Shown in pieces: positions 8,199 to 42,905 of a stretch of 42,905 bases of DNA. Origin of the DNA: Hyphomonas beringensis (GTDB lineage: Bacteria; Pseudomonadota; Alphaproteobacteria; Caulobacterales; Hyphomonadaceae); NCBI RefSeq assembly GCF_000682755.1, contig NZ_AWFF01000040.1:1-42905 (forward strand), read 5' to 3'. The notes under the pieces were generated by a model that was given only the letters and a program-made list of their open reading frames with translations, did no database searches and was not told where the DNA came from. Both the position numbers and the translations under genes were made by a program. Numbering within the stretch: position 1 is the first letter of the stretch; each line of letters begins with the position of its first letter.

Positions 8199-8876
8199 AT
8201 GACCGACACTGATTATATCCGCCCGCGCACGCGGCTTTACCTGATCACGCCGCCCCGGATCGAGGATGTGGACGGCTTTGCCGCCTTGCTGGAAACGACT
8301 TTGACGGCGGGCGATGTCGCCTGTCTTCAGCTGCGCCTGAAGACGCCGGAGGGCGAGATTGATCTCGACGCGACGCGCACGGTCGGCACAGCTGTGACGG
8401 AGATGGCGCAGGCCTATGGCGTGGCCGTTCTGGTCAATGACAGCCCCGAACTGGCGGTAGAGCTCAGCGCCGATGGCGTGCATCTCGGTTGGGATGACAT
8501 GCCGGTCAAACAGGCGCGCGAGCTAGTCGGCCCGGAGATGATCATTGGCGCAACGGCCAAGAATTCCCGCCATGTGGCGATGAAGGCCGGCGAAGACGGC
8601 GCAGACTATGTTGCCTTTGGTGCCTTCTACCCCACACACACCAAGGCCGGCACCGTGGAGGCGAGCCCGGACCTGCTGGAAATCTGGCAGGAAAGCATGG
8701 AGATCCCCTGCGTCGCGATTGGCGGGATCACTGCGGAGAATGCCGAAGCGCTGATCACCGCAGGCGCAGACTTCCTGGCCGTATCCTCAGGCGTGTGGAA
8801 CCACCCGGCCGGTGCCCCGGCCGCCGTGGCAGAGTTCAACAAGGTCCTGGACCGTCTGGACCAGAGCGCGAGCTAG
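8199..8876 (+). CDS. thiE: Thiamine-phosphate synthase family protein
   Basis: The enzyme joins the pyrimidine (HMP-PP) and thiazole (THZ-P) halves of thiamine. In the 225-residue product the family motifs run in order: RLYLITPP, QLRLK (44-48), VLVNDS (78-82), GVHLGWDD (93-100), IGATAKN (116-122), ADYVAFGAFYPTHTK (135-149) and CVAIGGI. I start at the ATG at 8199, which gives the family N terminus; the longer open frame back to 8049 crosses the MarR promoter. No other thiamine genes are near. The insert of acidic residues after QLRLK and the ATAKN variant are divergent, so a side branch of the family with altered function cannot be excluded. Confidence 0.82.
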   Translation: MTDTDYIRPRTRLYLITPPRIEDVDGFAALLETTLTAGDVACLQLRLKTPEGEIDLDATRTVGTAVTEMAQAYGVAVLVNDSPELAVELSADGVHLGWDDMPVKQARELVGPEMIIGATAKNSRHVAMKAGEDGADYVAFGAFYPTHTKAGTVEASPDLLEIWQESMEIPCVAIGGITAENAEALITAGADFLAVSSGVWNHPAGAPAAVAEFNKVLDRLDQSAS

Positions 8877-32902: not shown

Positions 32903-32979
32903 GGTCCCGTAGCTCAGCAGGATAGAGCAACAGATTCCTAATCTGTAGGTCGCGCGTTCGAATCGCGCCGGGATCGCCA
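32903..32979 (+). tRNA. tRNA-Arg (anticodon CCU), CCA encoded
   Basis: The acceptor stem GGTCCCG (32903-32909) pairs with CGGGATC (32969-32975). The anticodon stem ACAGA/TCTGT encloses TTCCTAA with anticodon CCT (32937-32939), reading AGG. The T arm GCGCG-TTCGAAT-CGCGC (32952-32968) and the D stem GCTC/GAGC are intact. Discriminator G and CCA are encoded. Such rare-codon arginine tRNAs are frequent integration sites, and an accessory region begins right after it. Confidence 0.95.
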
Positions 32980-33004
32980 AGATCATATAAAAAAACAATG
33001 CGTT

Positions 33005-33231
33005 ATAAATTCGGAAAAGTTAGACTTTGCGCTCTCCTTATCCAGAGATCGTTTCTCGGGTCAGTTATACTCGCCCGATACCGCCAAGCTTCTTGCGTCA
33101 GATATAATAGGTCGCATCTGGCACACCTAACGCACGGCAAGTCGAGACAGCATCCAGCCCGTCAGCAAGAGAAACCTCTACCTCACACAACAGCTGCAAG
33201 GCGTCCTCGTCCGAATGCCGCTCCGAGCCAT
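33005..33231 (-). pseudogene. Decayed IS3-family transposase orfA
   Basis: From the ATG at 33229-33231, MAR is followed, after a one-base deletion near 33222, by RHSDEDALQLLCEVEVSLAD, then GLDAVSTCRALGVPDATYYI, a TGA where the family has Trp, and RKKLGGIGRV; another frame continues as RSLDKESAK. This matches IS3-family OrfA (RH.xEE...GVxxxTYYxWRxxFGG...LEKENAxL). There are at least one frameshift and two stops, and the gene is cut off 26 bases from the tRNA end. No orfB remains. The stretch 33232-33327 may hold the insertion-sequence end, but I see no matching inverted repeat. Confidence 0.75.
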
Positions 33232-33327
33232 CACAAACCCCTCTTGAACAGCCAAGACCACTAAGATCAATTAGGTGCAGTTTTAAGGGGGAAGGGCAGG
33301 GTGACGCTAAAGTTCAGATAACTGACC

Positions 33328-35853
33328 TTATCCGACAGCAGGCACATCAACCGATTTTTCCACGCTTCCTGAGTATGGGTACCCGGCTTCCACCGTACTT
33401 ACCTCTTCAGGATAGTGGAAATAGTAACCTTGAAATTTGTGCACCCCCAAGCTCGCGAGGAAGGATGCCGTTGCACTAGTCTCGACGCCTTCTGCAACAA
33501 TTTCCAGACCAAGATGCCTGCATATTCCCAACGCCGCACCAACAAGAGCCTGATCGACAGGACTCGTTATCACATCCTTTATAACAGAATGGTCAAGCTT
33601 CAATCCGTCAACGTTCATAATTTTGAGAACTTCAAACGAATTGTATCCAGTACCAAAATCGTCCAAAAACAATCTGGCGCCTCTAGCTCGCAGAGATTCC
33701 AGGAATGCCTTCTCCTGAGGAGTCCAGCGCATACGCTCAGACTCAGTAAGCTCAAACCAGATCCTCTCCACCAAATCAATATTCTGATCAAGGACGTCTT
33801 CCAGCCAATTTCGAAAGGCAGGGTCAGCAATTGATGAGGCACTCAGGTTGACAGAAATGTACTGCCCCTCTCCAAAAAGTGCGGATTTCTCTTCATCGCG
33901 CAGGACCTGAATAACATGCTCAAACATGACCCGATCCAGCACTGGAATTATTCCGCCACGACGTGCATTTTCTAGAAAGTCGCAAGGACTATAAATACCG
34001 CCCTTCTCCCGCAATCGCATGAGCGCCTCATACCCGACACAACGTCCGCCTTTGGATACAATTTGCTGAAGAAACAGGATAATTCGCTTCTCTTCCACAG
34101 CCTCTAAAAGGCGATGGTACCAACTCCGGCTCTCTTGGGTCTCGGAAACATCCTCGGCCACTTCCTCAAAGTCGCAAACCCTGCCGCGCCCGGAGTTCTT
34201 TGCCGAATAACAGGCTGTATCCGCCTGGGTCATTGCCGTTTCAATGTCCAGTTGGTCTTGAATTTCTACCATCCCTATACTGACACCTATTCGGAAGACC
34301 CGCTCATTATGACTGAGCCGAAATGCGCTTACCTCTGAAACAAGTCTCTCTGCGACCCCACGGGCTCGGACCTTGTCAGTATCGTACAAGATAATACCGA
34401 ACTCATCCCCCCCAATCCTCGCAACCAAATCCGACTCCCGAACATTCTTACGGAGCATTTTACTAACGTCGCGGAGCACATTATCCCCAACCCGATGACC
34501 ACAGAGGTCATTGATAGCTTTGAAATGATCAAGGTCCAAAAACAAAAGAAAGTCCTTCGAGTTGCGCCGCTCACGCTCATTTACCTTCTCCCTCAAACGC
34601 TCTTCGAATGATCGCCGGTTATGGCATCCGGTCATTTCATCCGTATACGCCTGGCTTCTCAACTTCTTCGTGAGGGCAATGATGTCAGAAGCATCCTGCA
34701 GGAGAGCAACCGATCCGATGGGCCTCCCGTCCGCGCTTTGCATTGGTGCTATCGACATGTTGACGGGCTGTTTTTTATCCCCCGCGACTACGAGCTCGAG
34801 CATGGAGTGAAATCTCACCGACTGACCGCGAGCGATTACGCGATCCACCCAGTTGGCCGTATCATCCCCCTCCCTATTGCTCAAAAGCCTGAAGAGATCG
34901 CCGAATCTCCGACCGAGGACATCATTCTTCTCCCGTCCAATCAATCTCATGGCAACCGGGTTACACAGTGTGATAAGACCATTTTCGTCTGTACAAACGA
35001 TTCCCTCACTGGCAGATGAAATAGTAACCTGCGCCAGTTCATTTGCTTTATGTAGCGCCTCACTATGTTGATATTCAGCGGTTACGTCCTCCATGCGCAT
35101 AATGGAGTGTTGCACAGCACCGCGGCCGTCGCGGACATGCCTGATGCATATGCGCAAGCGGATTTCCTCTCCTTCTCCCTTTGGGGTTGATACCTCGTAA
35201 GTGAGACCTATCTCATCCTCTGCCTCAGATTGGCTACACGCACGGATCCTTTCCGCTCCCAATCCGTTCAGTATACCGATATCAGCAAATGGTTTGCCCA
35301 CCAAGTCGGCCACAGGCAGTCCCGTGATCTTGCCAGCGACGCGGTTAGCGAAGGAGATCAGCTTGTTTCCATCGATAACCAGAAGGCCTATGGGTGCATG
35401 ATCAAGCGCTTCTCGGAACAATGCTTCAGACTCCGCCAACGCAATCTGACTCACCTTCAAATCTGTGACATCTCGCAGTACGACAAGTAGTCCTCTAGGC
35501 TTCCCGCGTGGACAATACTGGCGCTCTGTCGATACCTGTACGTCTCGCGCCACCAATCGCGAAGTTACAAGCTTGGCAGGCAGTGATTGATGCCCTTCAA
35601 ACCCTTTCAGAAGCTCAAGGGGACGGTCTTTCTGCCCCACCAGCTTGAAGGCAACTTCAAAGGGGAGTCCTTGGGCATCATCAATCTCTATGCCACACAT
35701 TTCGGAGGCTGAGTTGTTTAAATATTCAATTGCGCCGCGCTCATCGACTCGCACGACCGCATCGCTAATAGCCGTAAGTGTCGCATCGAGAAGACTCGTT
35801 TCTTGCACGACACTACCGCGCAACTTCAATCGTTTGGAGTTGTGGGAAATCAC
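33328..35853 (-). CDS. PAS-PAS-PAS-GGDEF-EAL c-di-GMP signalling protein
   Basis: This 841-residue soluble protein has three PAS domains (about 20-130, 140-260 and 270-390), a GGDEF cyclase domain (400-560) and an EAL phosphodiesterase domain (575-830). Both active sites look intact: GGDEF 481-485 with the product-inhibition RxxD site Arg472-Asp475; EAL 609-611 with Asn669, Glu701, Asp731/732, Lys752, Glu788 and Gln808. It could make or break c-di-GMP depending on PAS input. The start is a GTG with AAAGG upstream. It is the island gene nearest the tRNA. Confidence 0.92.
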   Translation of the reverse strand: MISHNSKRLKLRGSVVQETSLLDATLTAISDAVVRVDERGAIEYLNNSASEMCGIEIDDAQGLPFEVAFKLVGQKDRPLELLKGFEGHQSLPAKLVTSRLVARDVQVSTERQYCPRGKPRGLLVVLRDVTDLKVSQIALAESEALFREALDHAPIGLLVIDGNKLISFANRVAGKITGLPVADLVGKPFADIGILNGLGAERIRACSQSEAEDEIGLTYEVSTPKGEGEEIRLRICIRHVRDGRGAVQHSIMRMEDVTAEYQHSEALHKANELAQVTISSASEGIVCTDENGLITLCNPVAMRLIGREKNDVLGRRFGDLFRLLSNREGDDTANWVDRVIARGQSVRFHSMLELVVAGDKKQPVNMSIAPMQSADGRPIGSVALLQDASDIIALTKKLRSQAYTDEMTGCHNRRSFEERLREKVNERERRNSKDFLLFLDLDHFKAINDLCGHRVGDNVLRDVSKMLRKNVRESDLVARIGGDEFGIILYDTDKVRARGVAERLVSEVSAFRLSHNERVFRIGVSIGMVEIQDQLDIETAMTQADTACYSAKNSGRGRVCDFEEVAEDVSETQESRSWYHRLLEAVEEKRIILFLQQIVSKGGRCVGYEALMRLREKGGIYSPCDFLENARRGGIIPVLDRVMFEHVIQVLRDEEKSALFGEGQYISVNLSASSIADPAFRNWLEDVLDQNIDLVERIWFELTESERMRWTPQEKAFLESLRARGARLFLDDFGTGYNSFEVLKIMNVDGLKLDHSVIKDVITSPVDQALVGAALGICRHLGLEIVAEGVETSATASFLASLGVHKFQGYYFHYPEEVSTVEAGYPYSGSVEKSVDVPAVG

Positions 35854-36327
35854 GTCAAAAAAACCTTTAAGATACCGTCTGTCGCATTGAATACTACTCT
35901 GTTCGCCAGCCCCACAATCGGGTCACTCGGTCTGCAGCCTGAATACGAAACTTCATCTCGCCTGGTTCAGCCGGAACCTATGCGCAATTTCGAAACTCGG
36001 CCATACGCCGGCGGAGTATTCACAATACGATCTCATACATTCCTCACATCAGTTGCTAATATCGCAAATGCACATGAATATGCGCAACGATCCTGAGCAT
36101 TGCATTTGAGAATTGTGCAGCGGGTTAAAAGCTCACCAACAGATGACTCCACTCTGGATCACATCCACCGAAAATCTGTCTACGCAGCATATTTTTCAGT
36201 ACTGGCCACAGTATTTAGTTTTCATAAGTCGCTTCAAGACGGAGTATTTTATGTAGAACAAATGCCTTCTAACAGATTTTCACTTAGACAGGCATCCGCT
36301 AAACGGTCTACTTAGCATTCACCGTGC
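35854..36327. other. Intergenic stretch without a supported gene
   Basis: These 474 AT-richer bases separate two minus-strand genes. Short open frames exist on the plus strand but lack ribosome-binding sites and family features. The leader and promoter of the GGDEF-EAL gene must lie in its left part, but I cannot pick hexamers with confidence. Confidence 0.5.
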
Positions 36328-37101
36328 TCACTCATCTAAATTCAAAGTGCTGATACCGAGCTTCAGAGCCACGACAGCGGCCTGGGTGCGATTCGTCACA
36401 TTAAGCTTCTTAAATACACCGCGTGCCATCTGCTTCACTGCGGCAATCGAAATACCCAAGTTTGAGGCAATAATCTTATTTGATTGTCCGCTGACAATTA
36501 GACGGAGCAACTCTCGGTCGCTACTGGATAGACTGGCCGACAACTCATTTAATTCTTTACTGGAAGCAGAGCCTGATGGGTCTGATCCCAAGGCTCCTTT
36601 GATAATTGAAACTGGCGCATATGTTCCACCCATTTCAATCAAATCTGCAACCCGATCAATAACAGCAACGCCTTCTTCTTTTGAAATATAGCCAGCCGCT
36701 CCGGATTGCAGGGCTCTGATCGCATCTTCATCGGACATCATGCCAGAAAAGAAAATGACTTTGGCGTCTGGAAGCCTCTGGACTATCTCAGCTACAGCAT
36801 CGAGCGCTGACCCCTCAGGCATCACAAAATCCATTATGACGATTTGAGGATTAACACGGTCAAGCGCAGTCAGAACTTCGTTGAAATTGGTGGCCTTCTC
36901 CACCTTGGCATCCGGCCATTTTCCTTTGCAGAAGTCGGCCAGGAATTCCAACACAAACGGATGATCATCCGCAATCAATATTGTTGATACTCCCCTTTGA
37001 GCGCTATGTTCGCCACTGCGCATCAAAAAGTCCCTCCATTCGGGCTCCGCCTTGCTGGCCCCTCCTCCATTCCCCTCAGAAAACACGCGGTGGCTACTCA
37101 T
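36328..37101 (-). CDS. NarL/LuxR-type response regulator
   Basis: This 257-residue protein has an N-terminal extension of about 38 residues, a receiver domain (39-160) and a LuxR/FixJ helix-turn-helix (about 189-250). The acidic pocket is Asp45/Asp46, the phosphoacceptor Asp91 (VIMDFVMPEG), Ser119 and Lys141. The output helix-turn-helix is SNKIIASNLGISIAAVKQMARGVFKKL. The ATG has GGGGGAAGG just upstream. It is the only response regulator with a DNA-binding output in the window and the natural end point for the nearby hybrid kinase and HPt-like protein. Confidence 0.9.
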   Translation of the reverse strand: MSSHRVFSEGNGGGASKAEPEWRDFLMRSGEHSAQRGVSTILIADDHPFVLEFLADFCKGKWPDAKVEKATNFNEVLTALDRVNPQIVIMDFVMPEGSALDAVAEIVQRLPDAKVIFFSGMMSDEDAIRALQSGAAGYISKEEGVAVIDRVADLIEMGGTYAPVSIIKGALGSDPSGSASSKELNELSASLSSSDRELLRLIVSGQSNKIIASNLGISIAAVKQMARGVFKKLNVTNRTQAAVVALKLGISTLNLDE

Positions 37102-37113
37102 TTCCTTCCCCCA

Positions 37114-37142
37114 ATAATAGAATGATAGCGTTCTCTATTATA
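37114..37142 (-). promoter_or_regulatory. Consensus -10 within a perfect dyad upstream of the response regulator
   Basis: On the minus strand TATAAT lies at 37137-37142, giving a leader of about 30 bases. ATAATAGA (37114-37121) and TCTATTAT (37134-37141) form a perfect 8-bp inverted repeat that overlaps the -10 and the expected start site, as an autoregulatory operator would. The -35 is poor. Confidence 0.5.
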
Positions 37143-37442
37143 CGCAATACGAATTCTACAAATATTTGGCAGATACGAACCGGCCAAGTTCAAACACCTC
37201 CGAATGGAGATCAAAAGATATTGATGCAACCTCGTCTCCGGTAAGCTTTTCTCCGTTGGCAAACCCGGTTCAGTACACTCGGCTTCAAGACAGCGGCGAT
37301 CGTGCAGCCTGCTGTTGTAAAGTAACACGTGAAGCCAGAATTTCTAAATAACCGCAGCCCCAAAGCACCTCAATCGCACCGGCACAAGCTCAAGCAATAA
37401 ATGGGTTTTCACGCGACCATGCCATTAGCACGCCCTAATGCT

Positions 37443-37503
37443 CAAAAGATCTAACTTTCGAGCACTCCAGTGACCAAAAGATTTACGAGAATAGCCAAAA
37501 GAT
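37443..37503. repeat. Three CAAAAGAT direct repeats at helical spacing
   Basis: CAAAAGAT occurs at 37443-37450, 37475-37482 and 37496-37503, that is 32 and 21 bases apart (three and two helical turns). A further copy is at 37212-37219. They lie upstream of the MarR-like gene in a 495-base spacer (37102-37596) that otherwise holds only the response-regulator promoter. They may be binding sites for one of the local regulators. Confidence 0.45.
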
Positions 37504-37596
37504 CCGTACACATGCACAGCCAATCCTGTGATCTTGAACCGATCAAGACCGTGCGCCGTTCGCGCATATACTCAGAAAAAAGCGTTGTGCCATAGA

Positions 37597-38082
37597 ATGA
37601 ACAGATATAATCAACAGGCATCCTACCGCGACATTACGATGTCATCTCCGGATATCGCATCCGCTGCAGAGGAGTCTTCATCCCGAAATCAACAGGTGGA
37701 TTTGCGACTAATCAAAGCTTCGTTCCGCATGAGGGAACGGCGCAGAAATCTTGTCCGCGATTACAAGATTGACGACGCAGCGTGGTGGATGCTCTTGGAC
37801 CTATACCAAGCGCATGCCAACAAAACAAAGCTATACGTCTCTGCACTGTGCGCCAATGCTGGCACATCTGCCACGAGCGCGCTTCGCCGCCTGGAAGGCC
37901 TAATAGATGCCGGCCTTGCCGCACGCCTTCCTGATACTGAGGATTCAAGAAGAATATATATTGTGTTGACTGCATGCGGCCTAGAGGCAACGCGGACCTA
38001 TCTGTCGCATCTGAACACGGAACTCTTTGCCGCCCTTGCTCCAGACTTAGCTAATCTAAAAGGCATCAGTAAATCCGAGTAA
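37597..38082 (+). CDS. MarR-like winged-helix regulator
   Basis: This 161-residue protein has a disordered Ser-rich N terminus and a winged-helix domain (about 58-140): DDAAWWMLLDLYQA, the recognition region SALCANAGTSATSALRRLEGLIDAGLAARL, and the wing DTEDSRRIYIVLT. Start is uncertain: ATG at 37597 or 37639, both without a strong ribosome-binding site; a GTG at 37528 is less likely. It stands alone between long spacers in the signalling island. Confidence 0.72.
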   Translation: MNRYNQQASYRDITMSSPDIASAAEESSSRNQQVDLRLIKASFRMRERRRNLVRDYKIDDAAWWMLLDLYQAHANKTKLYVSALCANAGTSATSALRRLEGLIDAGLAARLPDTEDSRRIYIVLTACGLEATRTYLSHLNTELFAALAPDLANLKGISKSE

Positions 38083-38224
38083 AAATGGGTTATTTGTGCC
38101 CTAACAGGCGTAAGGACCTGCGTGCTCCTTCATACCGGAACGGCCAGACCATTTATCACTAGACAGAATGTTCCCACGTTTTTGCGCAGGGCATTGTATG
38201 TTTATTTTCAAGGAAGTTTCGCCC

Positions 38225-38238
38225 TTGGCAGTTGCCAA
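38225..38238. promoter_or_regulatory. Short dyad TTGGCA-GT-TGCCAA
   Basis: A perfect 6-bp inverted repeat with a two-base spacer lies in the 268-base spacer (38083-38350) before the HPt-like gene. It is of operator size. I see nothing else in that spacer that I can name. Confidence 0.35.
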
Positions 38239-38350
38239 AACTCGATTCATTTATTAGCAGCACCTTTGGCGTTTTGGGCTGTATTTTGACCACACCGGGT
38301 CACCATGAGCGCCAGAAACTAGAATGGCTTCATGAATCAGGCTTCCTTTT

Positions 38351-38641
38351 ATGCCACTATCCAAATATTATCAGCTCTTTCATGATACCAATCTGCCTAT
38401 CCTGAAAGCAATTTCCGATGACGTGAAAATCGGTGCATATACGTCAGCAAAGACAAAATCTCACGCCGTCATTGGGGCCGCCCTTCTACTCGGGGCAACA
38501 GACTTGACCGAAGCAATGAGATCTTTTGAACACGCATTACTTTCATTGGATTCCTCTTCTGCAATGCTGCATTTAAACAGCGCCTTCGCACTTGTGTCGG
38601 CATATGATTCGAAATCGACGCATCGTCGGCTCAAAGACTAG
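38351..38641 (+). CDS. Free-standing HPt-like phosphotransfer protein
   Basis: This 96-residue helical protein contains KSHAVIGAALLLGATDLTEAMRSFEHALLSLD, which aligns with the HPt core (AHxLKGxAxxxGAxxLxxxxxxLE). His38 would be the phosphorylated residue, and the following Gly42, Gly48-Ala49 and Leu52 are kept, while the usual Lys after His is Ile41. HPt proteins shuttle phosphate from a hybrid-kinase receiver to a response regulator. It lies between the response regulator and the hybrid kinase, neither of which has an HPt domain. Confidence 0.65.
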   Translation: MPLSKYYQLFHDTNLPILKAISDDVKIGAYTSAKTKSHAVIGAALLLGATDLTEAMRSFEHALLSLDSSSAMLHLNSAFALVSAYDSKSTHRRLKD

Positions 38642-38866
38642 AAATCATAGTACCGAGGCGCATGGTCAAATTGACGGCCTCAAGCCCTCGCATCGTTTGC
38701 AATAAGTCAATTTGGGTGCCGCGCTCTGAGCAGGCAAACCACCATTAGCTTTGGTGGAGACCAAACGAATATGCGACTCAACAAATATAACCAGTGTGAT
38801 AGGTTAAAGGGGCCCGATCCGCCAGAATGCGTCTCGAACTGAAACCGCAGACGAAGTGCATCTAAC
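38642..38866. other. Spacer with one hairpin before the hybrid kinase
   Basis: CCACCA (38739-38744) and TGGTGG (38752-38757) form a 6-bp hairpin with a seven-base loop. No T tract follows. No gene is supported in this stretch. Confidence 0.4.
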
Positions 38867-40648
38867 ATGTATTTAAAAGCTATGCTGCCCCCAGCAATTA
38901 ACCCGCTTGCGGCCGCACGTCGCTGGATGACGCAGTTATCAAAACGGATTGTTCGATCCTATAGCCAGCCAGAAGAAATGGACATCTTCCACGTCGCCGT
39001 CAATTTCATGGCAATCTGGCTTGGCCTTTTCATGACCGTCATGTCCATTGGATTGGGGTTCCTCTATAGCGATAGTTTGCTTCCATTCTTTCTGATAGCA
39101 GGAATCTGGGGATTCAGTGGCGCTATTGTTCCCCTAGTGAAACGCGCTCGCCGAACGGATCGTATTCCGACCTTGTTTTTGGCGTCAGCCTTCTCAATGC
39201 CCCTGCTTTTCCATGCCATGTTCGCCTCAGAACACCATCTGATCGTGTTTAGCGCGGTAGTATTGGGCAGCCACTTGATACTCATTAGACCCGAACGTCT
39301 TGGCTTCAGAATTGCAACTTTTGTCTCCGTGGGGCTTGCCACTTTGCTGTGTTTCCTATGGCAGCCAGCTCCTTTGGCAGAACTCCCCCTGACCAGACGC
39401 GACGAGTTGCTTAACGTGGTCGAATATTTTGTCATCTCGATCATGCTACTGCATCTCCTCGTGATCCCATCTGTTTTAAGCGCGGCAGATAGACAGGTTC
39501 GTCTCGCATCCGCACAGGCAGAAGCCGAAAAAGAATGGGCTCTTAGAGCAGCTAGAGCGCAACGTGATTTCCTGGCGAATGTAAGCCACGAATACCGAAC
39601 GCCTTTAACAACACTCGTAATGGCATCCCAACGCCTGCTCCGGAAACCTGAGGTATCAAAGTTCAGTGATGAGTTCATTGCCGTGGAGGCGGCGACTCTC
39701 CACCTTCTGGCACTCTTCAATAATTCACTCGACTATACCCGTTACAGCGACGGTCGGTTCAAGACTCGATATTCGCCCGTCAATCTCCGTGAGCATATGG
39801 AAAATGTAAGAGATACGCTCTTGCCACAGATCGAGAGCAAATCTCTGTCCATAAACATTGAGGTTAGCGACTCAGTTCCCCAGTCGTTTGACTGCGACCC
39901 GCTGCTCCTCCGTCAATTACTGCTGAATCTACTCTCAAATGCAGTGACGTACTCCACAGAGGGAGCAATACACGTCTTTGCTGACGCGAGCCTCGATGCC
40001 AAAACTCTCCATGTAGAAGTATCTGACAATGGTCCTGGCATACCTGATGACAAGCGCGAACTCATCTTTGAACCGTTTCAAAGAGGGGAAGGAAGGGACA
40101 CGTCCGATAGCCATAGCGTTGGCCTAGGCTTGGCCATATCCAAGCAAATTGCCACTCTGCTTGGAGGAGATATTGGCGTCAGAAATGCTGATAAGGGAGG
40201 TGCCGTTTTCTGGTTTGAACTCCCCTTTTCTGAGACACACGCTGTTCCACAAACAGAATTCCACACCTCACGCACACTACTCGCAGGAACCGCTTCAGTG
40301 CTACTGGTAGAGGATCATGCGTTTAATCGGCATTTTTTGAAAGAGGAACTCGAACGTGACGGCCACACAGTTAAAGCGGCCGCGGGTTACGATGATGCCT
40401 TGGAACTACTCTCGCATGAAGTCTTCGACATTGTGCTGACTGATATGAATTTAAGTGACGGCACGGGAATTGGCCTGCTGACCGAAGCAAGGCAAAATGG
40501 CATCGAAACGCCATTTGTTGCAATTACAGCAAGCTTTTCCGCCAAAGATCTGGAAGAATATCGCTTAGCTGGAATTGAGATTGTCCTGACAAAACCCTTG
40601 TCACTGGCCGAATTCCGGGCTGCTGTTTCATGGACTCGCAGAGGCTGA
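38867..40648 (+). CDS. Membrane hybrid histidine kinase with C-terminal receiver
   Basis: This 593-residue protein has about six transmembrane helices (43-205), a HisKA domain with phospho-His241 (FLANVSHEYRTPL), a HATPase domain with Asn354/Asn358, Asp387 (DNGPGIP) and GLGLAISKQI, and a receiver (475-590) with Glu482/Asp483, phosphoacceptor Asp526 (VLTDMNLSDG), Thr554 and Lys576. No periplasmic sensor domain is evident, so the signal may be sensed in the membrane. The lack of an HPt domain implies an outside partner, for which the gene at 38351 is the best candidate. Confidence 0.92.
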   Translation: MYLKAMLPPAINPLAAARRWMTQLSKRIVRSYSQPEEMDIFHVAVNFMAIWLGLFMTVMSIGLGFLYSDSLLPFFLIAGIWGFSGAIVPLVKRARRTDRIPTLFLASAFSMPLLFHAMFASEHHLIVFSAVVLGSHLILIRPERLGFRIATFVSVGLATLLCFLWQPAPLAELPLTRRDELLNVVEYFVISIMLLHLLVIPSVLSAADRQVRLASAQAEAEKEWALRAARAQRDFLANVSHEYRTPLTTLVMASQRLLRKPEVSKFSDEFIAVEAATLHLLALFNNSLDYTRYSDGRFKTRYSPVNLREHMENVRDTLLPQIESKSLSINIEVSDSVPQSFDCDPLLLRQLLLNLLSNAVTYSTEGAIHVFADASLDAKTLHVEVSDNGPGIPDDKRELIFEPFQRGEGRDTSDSHSVGLGLAISKQIATLLGGDIGVRNADKGGAVFWFELPFSETHAVPQTEFHTSRTLLAGTASVLLVEDHAFNRHFLKEELERDGHTVKAAAGYDDALELLSHEVFDIVLTDMNLSDGTGIGLLTEARQNGIETPFVAITASFSAKDLEEYRLAGIEIVLTKPLSLAEFRAAVSWTRRG

Positions 40649-40676
40649 TCAGCGCCTCCCTTCCTCCGATACTCAG

Positions 40677-42410
40677 CTATCTCCGTAGTGCGACTGAAAA
40701 GCCAAGCCAGTCCCGGTCAAGACGTTCATCCTTTGACTGAATGCTAGCCCACTCCAATTGCAGATTCATCAGCGCACGGTCCGTCAACTGCAACTGACTT
40801 CTGAGTCCCAGGCCTGCGCTTGCGGCGCCGCTATGAGCGCGCTCCAGTTGGCTTACTTGCTCGAGATGGGACTCCCCTGCGGCGACGGCGGCATAGGGCT
40901 GCACGTTAAACAAATCATTCACCCGGACGTTTGACTGTGCTTCAAACCTTCCAGCGACCATCCTATCCCCCGTCACTAGTCCTGAAGGCGGTCCCGATAC
41001 GAGGTCTGCTGACACGAACGAGGTCTGCTCGGATCGCAGTAGTGGCTCGTTGAAGCTGGATTGTGCTTTCACGGTCGCCCGCACCCACAATTGCTCACTA
41101 ACTTTCTTTAGGGCCGTTGCGCCGATGTTCAGCTTCGTGAAGTCTGCATCCGCCCCTTCTCGTGACAAGGGTCGCAAGACTGATGCTTCTGAGGCTCCGC
41201 GCGCACCGAGCCCATCTATCCCTTGTGAGAACTGCACATCATAGCTCAGCGTGCCTGGGCTGGAAAGAGAACGGTAACCAGACAATCCAGCCCTAACCGC
41301 GCGCGTGCGGTCTGAAAATAGCGGCACTTCGTTTGCCAGCAGCTCCACATTCTGTTCTTCAAAAGACGCATCGAAGCCCAGCGACACTGTGGTAGATTTT
41401 TTGCGCGTACGCTCCAGTGCATACGACGCATTGATGCCGGTACGGAAAAAATCGCTTTTGAACTGAACGCCTGCCTCAACAGGGTCTGGCGCATTGCTTG
41501 CCTGCAGCGCCTGAAATCCAACTGACCAGCCATCCACACCCACAGGAGCGCTGGCCGAAACACCGAGATAACTCCGCAAAGCCGTTGAGCCGAAGCCCGG
41601 ATCATCGAGCGCAGTTGCAGCTGTCACGACGACTTGCTCGCCGGCCCCGAGCACTGAGTTGGCCGCTGCAGAGAAGGTAATCTGTTCACGTCCGACATCT
41701 TCAATGACGCGGTTGTCGATTGACACCACGGCATTCAGCGCTTGGTGCTCACCGGTAACCACAAGAGTTGTTGCCCCGATCTCTGCGCCTGGCGTCAGAG
41801 CTGTTCGCAGCCTGAGGCCCTTGGTATCGCCAGCGAGCAGAATACGGCGCTCTAATTCATCGGCTGTCACCATTTGCTCCCCAACCAGTGGCGAAAGCAT
41901 CTTCTCAACTTGGCGCGCAACCTTGTCCGGCAGAGCACTTGAATCGATGTGATCAATATAGCCATCGACAATCAGGAGGCGAACATCACCTCCATTCAGC
42001 TGAATATCCTGGGCCGGTACAGCAACGCGTACGAGTGGGTAGCCTGCTTCGAAGTAAAGCTGTTGCACGTGACCCGCAAACTCGAAAAGGTCAGCAACCG
42101 TTACGGTCGCGCCGGACTTTGGGGCGGCCTCTAGCGCGCGGGCGTTTAGCTCTGGCTGTCCGCCCTCCAATACAATTCCACCTACAACGAACCGGGAGTT
42201 TTCAGCGCCTGGAGGCGCCATCAGGCCCCGCACTTGCGGCAATGAAAGGACAGTATCGCTCTGCATCTCGCCGGCGACTTCGCCTGGAGGCTGTTGGCTT
42301 GGCGAAGTCCCCTGCGCCTGACCATATGAAGCACCTGCCAGCGCCGCCGATGCAACTCCCGACATGAGAAGCTTTGCCCGCAGGCCCGAGCAGGATTTTT
42401 TCTTAGTCAT
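40677..42410 (-). CDS. TpsB (ShlB/FhaC-type) outer-membrane transporter
   Basis: This 577-residue product has a signal peptide (about 1-32), two POTRA domains (about 73-150 and 150-228, the first with YFEAGYPLVRVAVPAQDIQLNGGDVRL) and a beta-barrel of about 345 residues. Such proteins export a TpsA partner in two-partner secretion. I start at the ATG at 42410, which has AAAGGG upstream and gives a proper signal peptide; the frame opens earlier. The L6-loop Arg-Gly-Tyr/Phe motif reads SGPPSGLVTGDR here, and the last residues are Arg, not aromatic, so the barrel is divergent. It is 70 bases behind the tpsA gene. Confidence 0.88.
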   Translation of the reverse strand: MTKKKSCSGLRAKLLMSGVASAALAGASYGQAQGTSPSQQPPGEVAGEMQSDTVLSLPQVRGLMAPPGAENSRFVVGGIVLEGGQPELNARALEAAPKSGATVTVADLFEFAGHVQQLYFEAGYPLVRVAVPAQDIQLNGGDVRLLIVDGYIDHIDSSALPDKVARQVEKMLSPLVGEQMVTADELERRILLAGDTKGLRLRTALTPGAEIGATTLVVTGEHQALNAVVSIDNRVIEDVGREQITFSAAANSVLGAGEQVVVTAATALDDPGFGSTALRSYLGVSASAPVGVDGWSVGFQALQASNAPDPVEAGVQFKSDFFRTGINASYALERTRKKSTTVSLGFDASFEEQNVELLANEVPLFSDRTRAVRAGLSGYRSLSSPGTLSYDVQFSQGIDGLGARGASEASVLRPLSREGADADFTKLNIGATALKKVSEQLWVRATVKAQSSFNEPLLRSEQTSFVSADLVSGPPSGLVTGDRMVAGRFEAQSNVRVNDLFNVQPYAAVAAGESHLEQVSQLERAHSGAASAGLGLRSQLQLTDRALMNLQLEWASIQSKDERLDRDWLGFSVALRR

Positions 42411-42480
42411 CTGAATACCCTTTATGCTGATCTTGTTATGATGGAGCCGAGCCTGCACACCGAGGCAGGCGACCCGTAAA

Positions 42481-42905
42481 TTACTCAACAGGTTGCGCCA
42501 CGGGGCGCCTATCGCAGTCTTGTCCTATGGCGCAGTCCTCAAGGTCGCCGTCGGCTTCATCCTGCTCTGTCGTTTCAGAGGCGCTTTCGGCCTCATTCAG
42601 TGCGCCGAGTTCCGGTGCCCGGTCATCGCCTTCCGAGAGTCCCGAATCCGGGGTCACAGGAGCATTGATGACGAACAGGCTGGCCTCATTGGTCACAGGC
42701 AACTCAGATGTTGGCTGCTCCGGTGAGGGTTGCTCTGGTGATGGCTGCTCCGGTGAGGGTTGCTCCGGGGAGGGTTGCTCCGGTGATGGCTGCTCCGGGG
42801 AGGGCTGCTCCGGCGAGGGCTGCTCCGGTGAGGGCTGCCCTGGCGATGGCTGCTCCGGGGAGGGCTGCTCACCTGCCGCCTGGACCGTCAGGGTGCCGCT
42901 TTCAA
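42481..42905 (-). CDS. C-terminal end of a TpsA-type exoprotein (partial)
   Basis: The frame enters from the window edge and ends at TAA (42481-42483), giving about 140 residues. It starts with ESGTLTVQAAG, a beta-helix-like rung, continues with ten EQPSP pentapeptides, and ends in an acidic tail with two Cys (LEDCAIGQDCDRRPVAQPVE). The position directly upstream of tpsB and the rung sequence indicate the filamentous-haemagglutinin-like substrate of that transporter. The secretion domain and bulk of the protein lie outside the window. Confidence 0.78.
   Translation of the reverse strand, partial: ESGTLTVQAAGEQPSPEQPSPGQPSPEQPSPEQPSPEQPSPEQPSPEQPSPEQPSPEQPSPEQPTSELPVTNEASLFVINAPVTPDSGLSEGDDRAPELGALNEAESASETTEQDEADGDLEDCAIGQDCDRRPVAQPVE
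42721..42870 (-). repeat. Ten-copy 15-bp repeat coding EQPSP
   Basis: Ten in-frame 15-base units encode EQPSP (the third has Gly in place of Glu), followed by a partial EQPT. Codons vary at wobble positions (for example CAG/CAA, CCG/CCA, TCA/TCC/TCG), so the array is not a recent slippage product. It makes a Pro-rich spacer near the C terminus of the exoprotein. Confidence 0.9.

Follow-up and report, generated by a model that had tools for sequence, protein, structure and literature searches.

A genomic island at a tRNA-Arg gene of Hyphomonas beringensis carries surface-protein secretion genes and a recurring regulatory cassette

Bacteria may acquire surface proteins and their regulators together, and a locus of Hyphomonas beringensis raises the question whether this has happened behind its tRNA-Arg(CCT) gene, where signalling genes are followed by genes for two-partner secretion (TPS). 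The stretch of DNA analysed (42,905 nucleotides; the window) is the entire contig C40 of a 3.8-Mb genome in 119 contigs (G000; other G-codes denote the comparison genomes). The DNA behind the tRNA is an integrated genomic island, and its signalling genes recur as a set in other genera, next to different surface-protein genes. With a probability of roughly 0.6, we consider that the island combines surface-protein secretion genes with a regulatory cassette that would act as a relay-driven switch of attachment.

An integrated island behind tRNA-Arg(CCT)

The tRNA-Arg gene (anticodon CCT; 32903..32979, plus strand; detected by ARAGORN and Rfam) is the insertion site and the left boundary of the island. 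Immediately past it the G+C content drops from ∼0.60 to ∼0.50; the values per 1-kb window are 0.56–0.67 before position 33001 and 0.46–0.56 in each of the nine windows that follow, up to 42000. The left part of the island, marked by this shift (32980..42905, no strand assigned), runs past the contig end, and other parts probably lie on contigs C70 and C98. The flanks of the tRNA gene were compared in seven congeners with at least 10 kb beside it (in an eighth, G009, the sequence stops within the tRNA). G016 and G025 have an empty site with the order flhB, small gene, GGDEF gene, tRNA-Arg, SNase, RpoH, in which the 3' end of the tRNA points at the GGDEF gene. The same neighbours are present in G019, with the tRNA-Arg reversed and extra frames between the tRNA and SNase, so that it is not a clean empty site; different genes stand beside the tRNA in G036, G018, G015 and G012.

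In G000 the flanks of the empty site are split: the GGDEF gene is on C98, and tRNA, SNase and RpoH are on C40. A degenerate copy of the tRNA-Arg 3' end is present at C98:123568-123613 (39 of 47 alignment columns identical, 83%), 111 bp from the start of the GGDEF gene; in G016 the tRNA 3' end is 106 bp from that gene. The spacers of C98 and G016 agree at 88 of 110 positions; the likeness ends past the tRNA part. The empty site and the copy on C98 together therefore place this fragment at the far end of the insertion; judged from its sequence it is a direct repeat of the tRNA 3' end, if C40 and C98 face each other, as the empty site implies. The preliminary description had proposed an island at tRNA-Arg, and the empty site and the tRNA copy bear this out. 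The island adjoins a flagellar cluster. Just within it, at 33080-33260 on the minus strand, lies what looks by eye like a remnant of the first frame of an IS3-type transposase.

A signalling set with different surface-protein partners

As had been described, all intact genes between the tRNA and the edge of the window are predicted from open reading frames and Pfam to encode signalling or TPS proteins. An 841-residue PASx3-GGDEF-EAL protein (33328..35853, minus strand; Pfam and motif check) has an RxxD I-site motif in its GGDEF domain and all EAL motifs looked for. It is followed by a REC-LuxR(GerE) response regulator of 257 residues (36328..37101, minus strand; Pfam and alignment), whose gene is divergent from that of a winged-helix protein of 161 residues from its ATG (37597..38082, plus strand; the longest frame starts at 37528). 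The latter belongs to a rare subfamily and scores 18.7 bits against PF12802, where the curated cut-off is 27, and is hence called MarR-like only. A stand-alone HPt-like protein of 96 residues with the motif HAVIGAA (38351..38641, plus strand; sub-cut-off Pfam match, AlphaFold2 model and PDB matches) precedes a hybrid kinase of 593 residues with HisKA, HATPase and REC domains (38867..40648, plus strand; Pfam), the N-terminal part of which appears membrane-embedded by eye. The kinase has a receiver and no HPt domain according to Pfam, and the HPt-like gene and that of a DNA-binding response regulator are close by, in agreement with the preliminary description. The gene for TpsB (POTRA_2 and ShlB by Pfam) occupies 40677..42488 on the minus strand. 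The frame at 42481..42903 (minus strand), which has a Pro-rich repeat, an acidic tail and no Pfam match, is probably the C-terminal part of TpsA, because it is placed before tpsB and resembles by eye the end of the TpsA of G018; the contig end cuts it, and the N-terminal TPS domain and the full size of the protein fall outside this contig.

Recurrence was assessed with the MarR-like protein. A search with this single sequence, which detects only relatives that have short words in common with it, gave 8 matches in ∼5.8 billion proteins, its own included. Counting the own genome, the gene turned up in 2 of 42 genomes within the genus, in 8 of 398 within the order (threshold E 1e-8) and in 27 of 385 within the class (threshold E 1e-10). 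Four of the eight order-level matches are strong (G000, G018, G052 and G273); around the four weak ones, neighbourhoods of 6–20 kb match no other protein of the window or the G018 module, receiver-domain fragments excepted. The class-level list comprised 33 places, and 20 stretches covering 21 of them were fetched. Two, from a close clade (G626 and G769), have HPt and PilZ genes, and G626 also a response regulator, SapC and a kinase. The other 18, which form the outgroup, gave no response regulator, HPt, PilZ or SapC and a kinase match in one, at E 1e-3 and, for the response regulator, kinase, GGDEF-EAL protein and TpsB, with 70% of the query covered; some of the 18 do have shorter matches to receiver, HTH, kinase or GGDEF-EAL sequences, which this filter removed, and in four of the 18 the MarR frame itself was without a match. 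A family search over 62 genomes found the MarR-like gene in G052 and G273 only and added nothing, and order searches around G626 (two genomes) and G769 (five genomes) returned the seeds only.

The rare MarR-like gene thus marks six loci in four genera. A MarR-like factor, a LuxR-type response regulator, an HPt protein, a cyclic di-GMP (c-di-GMP) protein and secreted surface-protein genes stand together in all four loci with enough sequence (G000, G018, G052 and G626), and partial sets are present on short contigs of G273 (MarR, PilZ and response regulator on 4.2 kb) and G769 (PilZ, HPt and MarR up to the contig end). The MarR-like and regulator genes are divergent in four of the five loci that show both (window, G018, G052 and G626). 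The c-di-GMP component is a GGDEF-EAL protein in the window and G018, and a PilZ protein in G052, G273, G626 and G769. The surface partner is tpsBA in G000 and G018, and a giant autotransporter in G052 and G626, which belong to two other families. As the type of surface protein differs while the regulators recur, the signalling set and not tpsBA is the constant part. The expectation of the same gene set around tpsBA in relatives stands insofar as the signalling set recurs with surface-protein genes, and fails for tpsBA itself, which is replaced by the autotransporter in G052 and G626. TpsB homologues also occur apart from the set: TpsB is present in 14 of 61 genomes and the MarR-like gene in 2 of 42 genomes of the genus (own included in both). 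The kinase is absent from the G018 locus.

The individual loci differ in their arrangement. In G018 the order is response regulator, TpsA, TpsB, IalB, SapC, MarR, response regulator, HPt, GGDEF-EAL and a 157-residue protein; this locus lies behind flhB, ∼157 kb from the tRNA-Arg of that genome, and has no hybrid kinase. The G052 locus has a second kinase, PilZ, the kinase and HPt on one strand and a 3481-residue protein with an autotransporter beta-domain (G052:C2:109869-120314) on the other, followed by the divergent MarR/regulator pair; its kinase is 34% identical to that of the window over residues 8-588. In G626 the divergent pair is followed by SapC, HlyD, an ABC transporter, HPt, PilZ and a kinase, and then by a surface protein that leaves the contig (L233:693-2915). 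The repeats of this protein are 77% identical to those of the G052 autotransporter over 626 residues, and the kinases 52%. That the repeats are more alike than the kinases, in genomes of different orders, hints that the surface gene may have been transferred or exchanged separately. The SapC, HlyD and ABC-transporter genes stand within the G626 module (L168:10435-14016), which suggests an additional partner there in the form of a type I secretion system.

Other searches did not extend the set. Scanning genome contigs with the kinase gave kinase-domain matches of 24–38% identity, none of them full-length, and did not recover the set. The HPt protein, used as a single query against 61 genomes, found itself only; as the HPts of G018 and G052, known from their neighbourhoods, escaped this search, it is a weak count of absence. 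Plasmids searched with the MarR-like protein, the kinase and TpsB gave matches below 60% identity only, and none of the three plasmid neighbourhoods examined held the whole set.

The island probably exceeds the window, with a second TPS system and IalB and SapC genes on C98 and C70. From the tRNA fragment, C98 runs into a TpsA with a TPS domain and FG-GAP and YDG repeats (the only PF05860 match in the genome), and repeat-coding frames reach the contig end. C70 (7.8 kb) carries a TpsA C-terminus, TpsB, two IalB genes, SapC, a 189-residue protein and a TpsA-like N-terminus, judged by eye, that leaves its right end. The 189-residue protein (L111:7032-7601) and the 157-residue protein (L119:433-903), which stand beside the two Hyphomonas gene sets, are related (32% over 101 residues); Pfam gives no match for the former and a sub-threshold match only for the latter. 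Because of the gene order in G018 and the relatedness of these two proteins, C98-C70-C40 is the preferred order of the pieces, which were ordered by gene content rather than by assembly. Over the three contig pieces the content would amount to two TPS systems, IalB, SapC and the signalling genes. The TpsA of C98 had been considered as the window's own TpsA and was dropped, C70 being the better fit to the G018 order. There were no chaperone-usher fimbrial genes among the island proteins scanned, assembly gaps aside.

Phosphorelay residues and a palindrome

The residues of a multistep phosphorelay are complete in the window (His241/Asp526, His38 and Asp91), and relay chemistry is plausible on these grounds. 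The hybrid kinase keeps His241 as well as Asp526 and Lys576 of the receiver; the response regulator keeps Asp91 and Lys141, both of which are invariant in an alignment of six regulators from five loci; and the HPt-like protein keeps His38. A phospho-accepting His is present in 10 of 11 aligned HPt rows, the exception being the G018 type, which has Asn. The HPt assignment draws support from relatives above the PF01627 cut-off and from the predicted fold. The relatives of G052, G626 and G769 pass with 34.4, 26.3 and 42.5 bits, respectively, and that of G018 fails with 19.0 bits. The AlphaFold2 model of the window protein (mean pLDDT 92.7) predicts the HPt four-helix-bundle fold: compared with the PDB by Foldseek, it matched the HPt of E. 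coli YojN best (TM 0.78, E 0.05, probability 1.0), and the top seven matches are all HPt proteins; no match reaches E ≤0.001, and non-HPt four-helix bundles such as PsbQ match from rank 8.

In the G018 HPt (L114:14631-14885) Asn replaces the phospho-His, and the hybrid kinase is absent from the same locus; a database HPt named 'uncultured Hyphomonas sp.' is identical to it in sequence. Loss of the kinase together with the phospho-His is what would be expected if kinase and HPt cooperate; the G018 genome has other kinases outside the locus. The HPt gene is directly upstream of the kinase gene in the window, in G052 and in the gene model of one further assembly, and not in G626. A gene model filed under the dinoflagellate Durusdinium trenchii (protein P0023) joins a G052-type HPt to the kinase and the second kinase; this is probably DNA of an associated bacterium in that assembly.

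Of 21 intergenic regions of the modules, 7 contain the palindrome TCCA-N3-TGGA (8 sites in 10.9 kb); the window copy, TCCACTCTGGA (TCCAN3TGGA; 36148..36158, no strand assigned), lies in the gap that separates the GGDEF-EAL gene from the regulator gene. The 21 regions were chosen by us and the word was first spotted in them, which makes resampling over all dyads the fair test. When all palindromic 4-mer dyads with spacers of 0–12 were counted, the next best was present in 3 regions; the largest count in 200 resampled sets was 5, and none of the 200 reached 7. Elsewhere there are 3 sites in 24.8 kb of other intergenic DNA (a stretch of contig C33 of G000 included) and 5 in 238 kb of the own genome.

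Weight matrices, built without the genome under test, ranked the window site first (12.5, with 11.6 for the next). Module sites also came first in C70 (4699 and 2136), G052 (109644 and 109568; the third site ranked fourth) and G626 (18510 and 14536). Among loci outside the matrix, the top sites in G018 precede the genes for TpsB, TpsA and the 157-residue protein, that in C98 precedes TpsA, and that in G769 precedes HPt and is equalled by a site within that gene; the best sites in G273 are weak. Exact palindromes stand upstream of the surface-protein gene in G052 and G626. The Ochrobactrum plasmid pLM19O1 (L230) has a palindrome-like site (13.0, at 8692) in a cluster that codes for IalB and autotransporters, together with an ATP-binding protein and with a response regulator that at its end matches the MarR-like protein; this cluster is a possible distant parallel.

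A strong site is also present on C33 of the own genome, where it scores 18.6 and lies 60 bp before a core lipoprotein/TpsB operon (L112:8429-11260) that encodes a 385-residue collagen-like secreted protein and a TpsB; this contig has no PF05860 match. The element joins island and core surface genes and suggests common regulation. A MarR-like factor acting alone is an unlikely reader of the palindrome. In an alignment, a K-Q pair in the recognition region is common to all six module regulators; in 2.6 Mb of sequence, which overlaps itself and covers little of G016 and G009, a pattern for the helix of the window type hit nothing but the regulators of G018, G052 and the window.

Alternative readings and known systems

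What follows on the route of the phosphate, on the target genes, on the role of the adhesin and on c-di-GMP turnover is our inference. The kinase would sense a cue in or at the membrane and autophosphorylate at His241, and the phosphate would pass to Asp526 of its own receiver, then to His38 of the HPt protein and to Asp91 of the LuxR-type regulator. The regulator and the MarR-like factor would set transcription of the adhesin and secretion genes and of the GGDEF-EAL enzyme, which in turn would adjust c-di-GMP and with it the balance between motile and sessile life. A broader proposal, which we make tentatively and at somewhat under even odds, is that of a portable attachment controller that swaps its cargo: the cassette (MarR-like factor, REC-LuxR regulator with the K-Q pair, stand-alone HPt, hybrid kinase, and c-di-GMP enzyme or PilZ protein) would move between alphaproteobacterial orders and be coupled, depending on the host, to a two-partner exoprotein or a giant autotransporter as the large surface protein, by a shared TCCAN3TGGA operator.

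Several observations weigh against the switch. In the frames of the C98 and C70 pieces and of C40 beyond the tRNA we noticed no integrase; no search with an integrase profile was made, and the assembly has gaps. The contig ends compared have no stretch of at least 16 bases in common, and the content across contigs was taken from gene content only. TpsB homologues are also present in genomes without the signalling set. Taken alone, the window has one palindrome where 0.65 is expected, which is not beyond chance, and scores of 12.1 to 14.4 are also reached in four of seven comparison loci, besides the C33 site. G016 and G009, neither of which has the MarR-like gene, share the core operon with its palindrome in the corresponding position; for this reason we do not take the palindrome as proof of wiring to the cassette's own factors. 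The same conservation is what would be expected if a core factor of the host bound TCCAN3TGGA and were the main reader of the adhesin genes, the island having joined an existing surface-protein regulon while the cassette fine-tunes something other than these genes, for example c-di-GMP. We regard this as a serious contender, yet a rather doubtful one: exact sites stand beside the cassette in G052 and G626, families in which a factor of a Hyphomonas subclade need not exist, and in four other, more distant congeners the core-operon stretches have no site above 10.7.

The HPt-like protein of the window does not reach the PF01627 cut-off (17.2 bits, curated cut-off 24.6) and carries Ile at a position that is usually Lys or Arg in the 11 aligned HPt rows, which likewise weighs against the switch. 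Together with the Asn and the missing kinase of the G018 locus, the absent Lys could mean that the Hyphomonas phosphorelay is decaying, with an HPt that is poor at phosphate transfer and a regulator served by another route or kinase; this is unlikely given His38, the retained His, Asp and Lys of the kinase and Asp and Lys of the regulator, and an HPt fold predicted with high confidence. It is also quite improbable that the cassette is a global motile/sessile switch acting through c-di-GMP, with the adhesin as one passive output. The full-motif GGDEF-EAL protein of the window, its counterpart in G018, the PilZ proteins of the other four loci and the position beside the flagellar cluster would fit such a switch, but a surface-protein gene stands beside the regulators in all four loci with enough sequence, and exact palindromes precede it in two of them. 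Least probable by far is a chance gathering of unrelated signalling genes in an AT-richer insertion hotspot. Each component is from a common family and tRNA sites do gather unrelated cargo, but the set turns up again in other genera, and the divergent arrangement of the MarR and regulator genes is kept (window, G018, G052 and G626), as against none of the 18 outgroup neighbourhoods.

A relay-driven switch on an island would work, by analogy, like two known systems with different parts. The abstracts on PAPI-1, a pathogenicity island of Pseudomonas aeruginosa PA14, report that the attachment genes cupD were probably acquired with two-component genes (rcsC/rcsB and pvrS/pvrR), among them those of a phosphorelay, and that RcsB activates the attachment genes while the EAL protein PvrR counteracts this (PMC3842833, PMC2696094). 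The likeness, as far as these abstracts go, is that of an island that pairs surface-attachment genes with a phosphorelay and an EAL protein, and is one of function: the cargo of PAPI-1 is chaperone-usher fimbriae, that of the present island is TPS (an autotransporter in relatives), and the abstracts mention no MarR-like factor or stand-alone HPt gene. The other system is that of Bordetella, bvgASR/fha. FhaB is a TPS protein, fhaB adjoins bvgAS, and BvgS carries its own HPt. A two-component regulator is described as activating the adhesin gene fhaB, and the EAL gene bvgR lies downstream of bvgS; both loci thus show two-component control, predicted in our case, of an adhesin gene plus a gene for an EAL-domain protein, but BvgR lacks 12 of the 13 residues that matter to the activity of an EAL domain, and the window enzyme has GGDEF and EAL motifs (PMC11537037, PMC12805831). 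For CdrA/CdrB of P. aeruginosa, a TPS-type adhesin made under raised c-di-GMP, the likeness is limited to the adhesin type and c-di-GMP, the abstract mentioning no accompanying phosphorelay cassette (PMC2847200). Among the openly licensed papers listed for this combination or genus there was, by title or abstract opening, no description of the cassette, which is not evidence that none has been published.

If the proposed switch is correct, a bacterium can acquire a complete attachment programme, with its own regulation, by a single transfer. One kind of controller would then serve several secretion routes, and looking beside the cassette would be a testable rule for the discovery of unknown surface proteins. 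G018, with no kinase in its locus and an HPt without the His, would provide a natural experiment on the relay.

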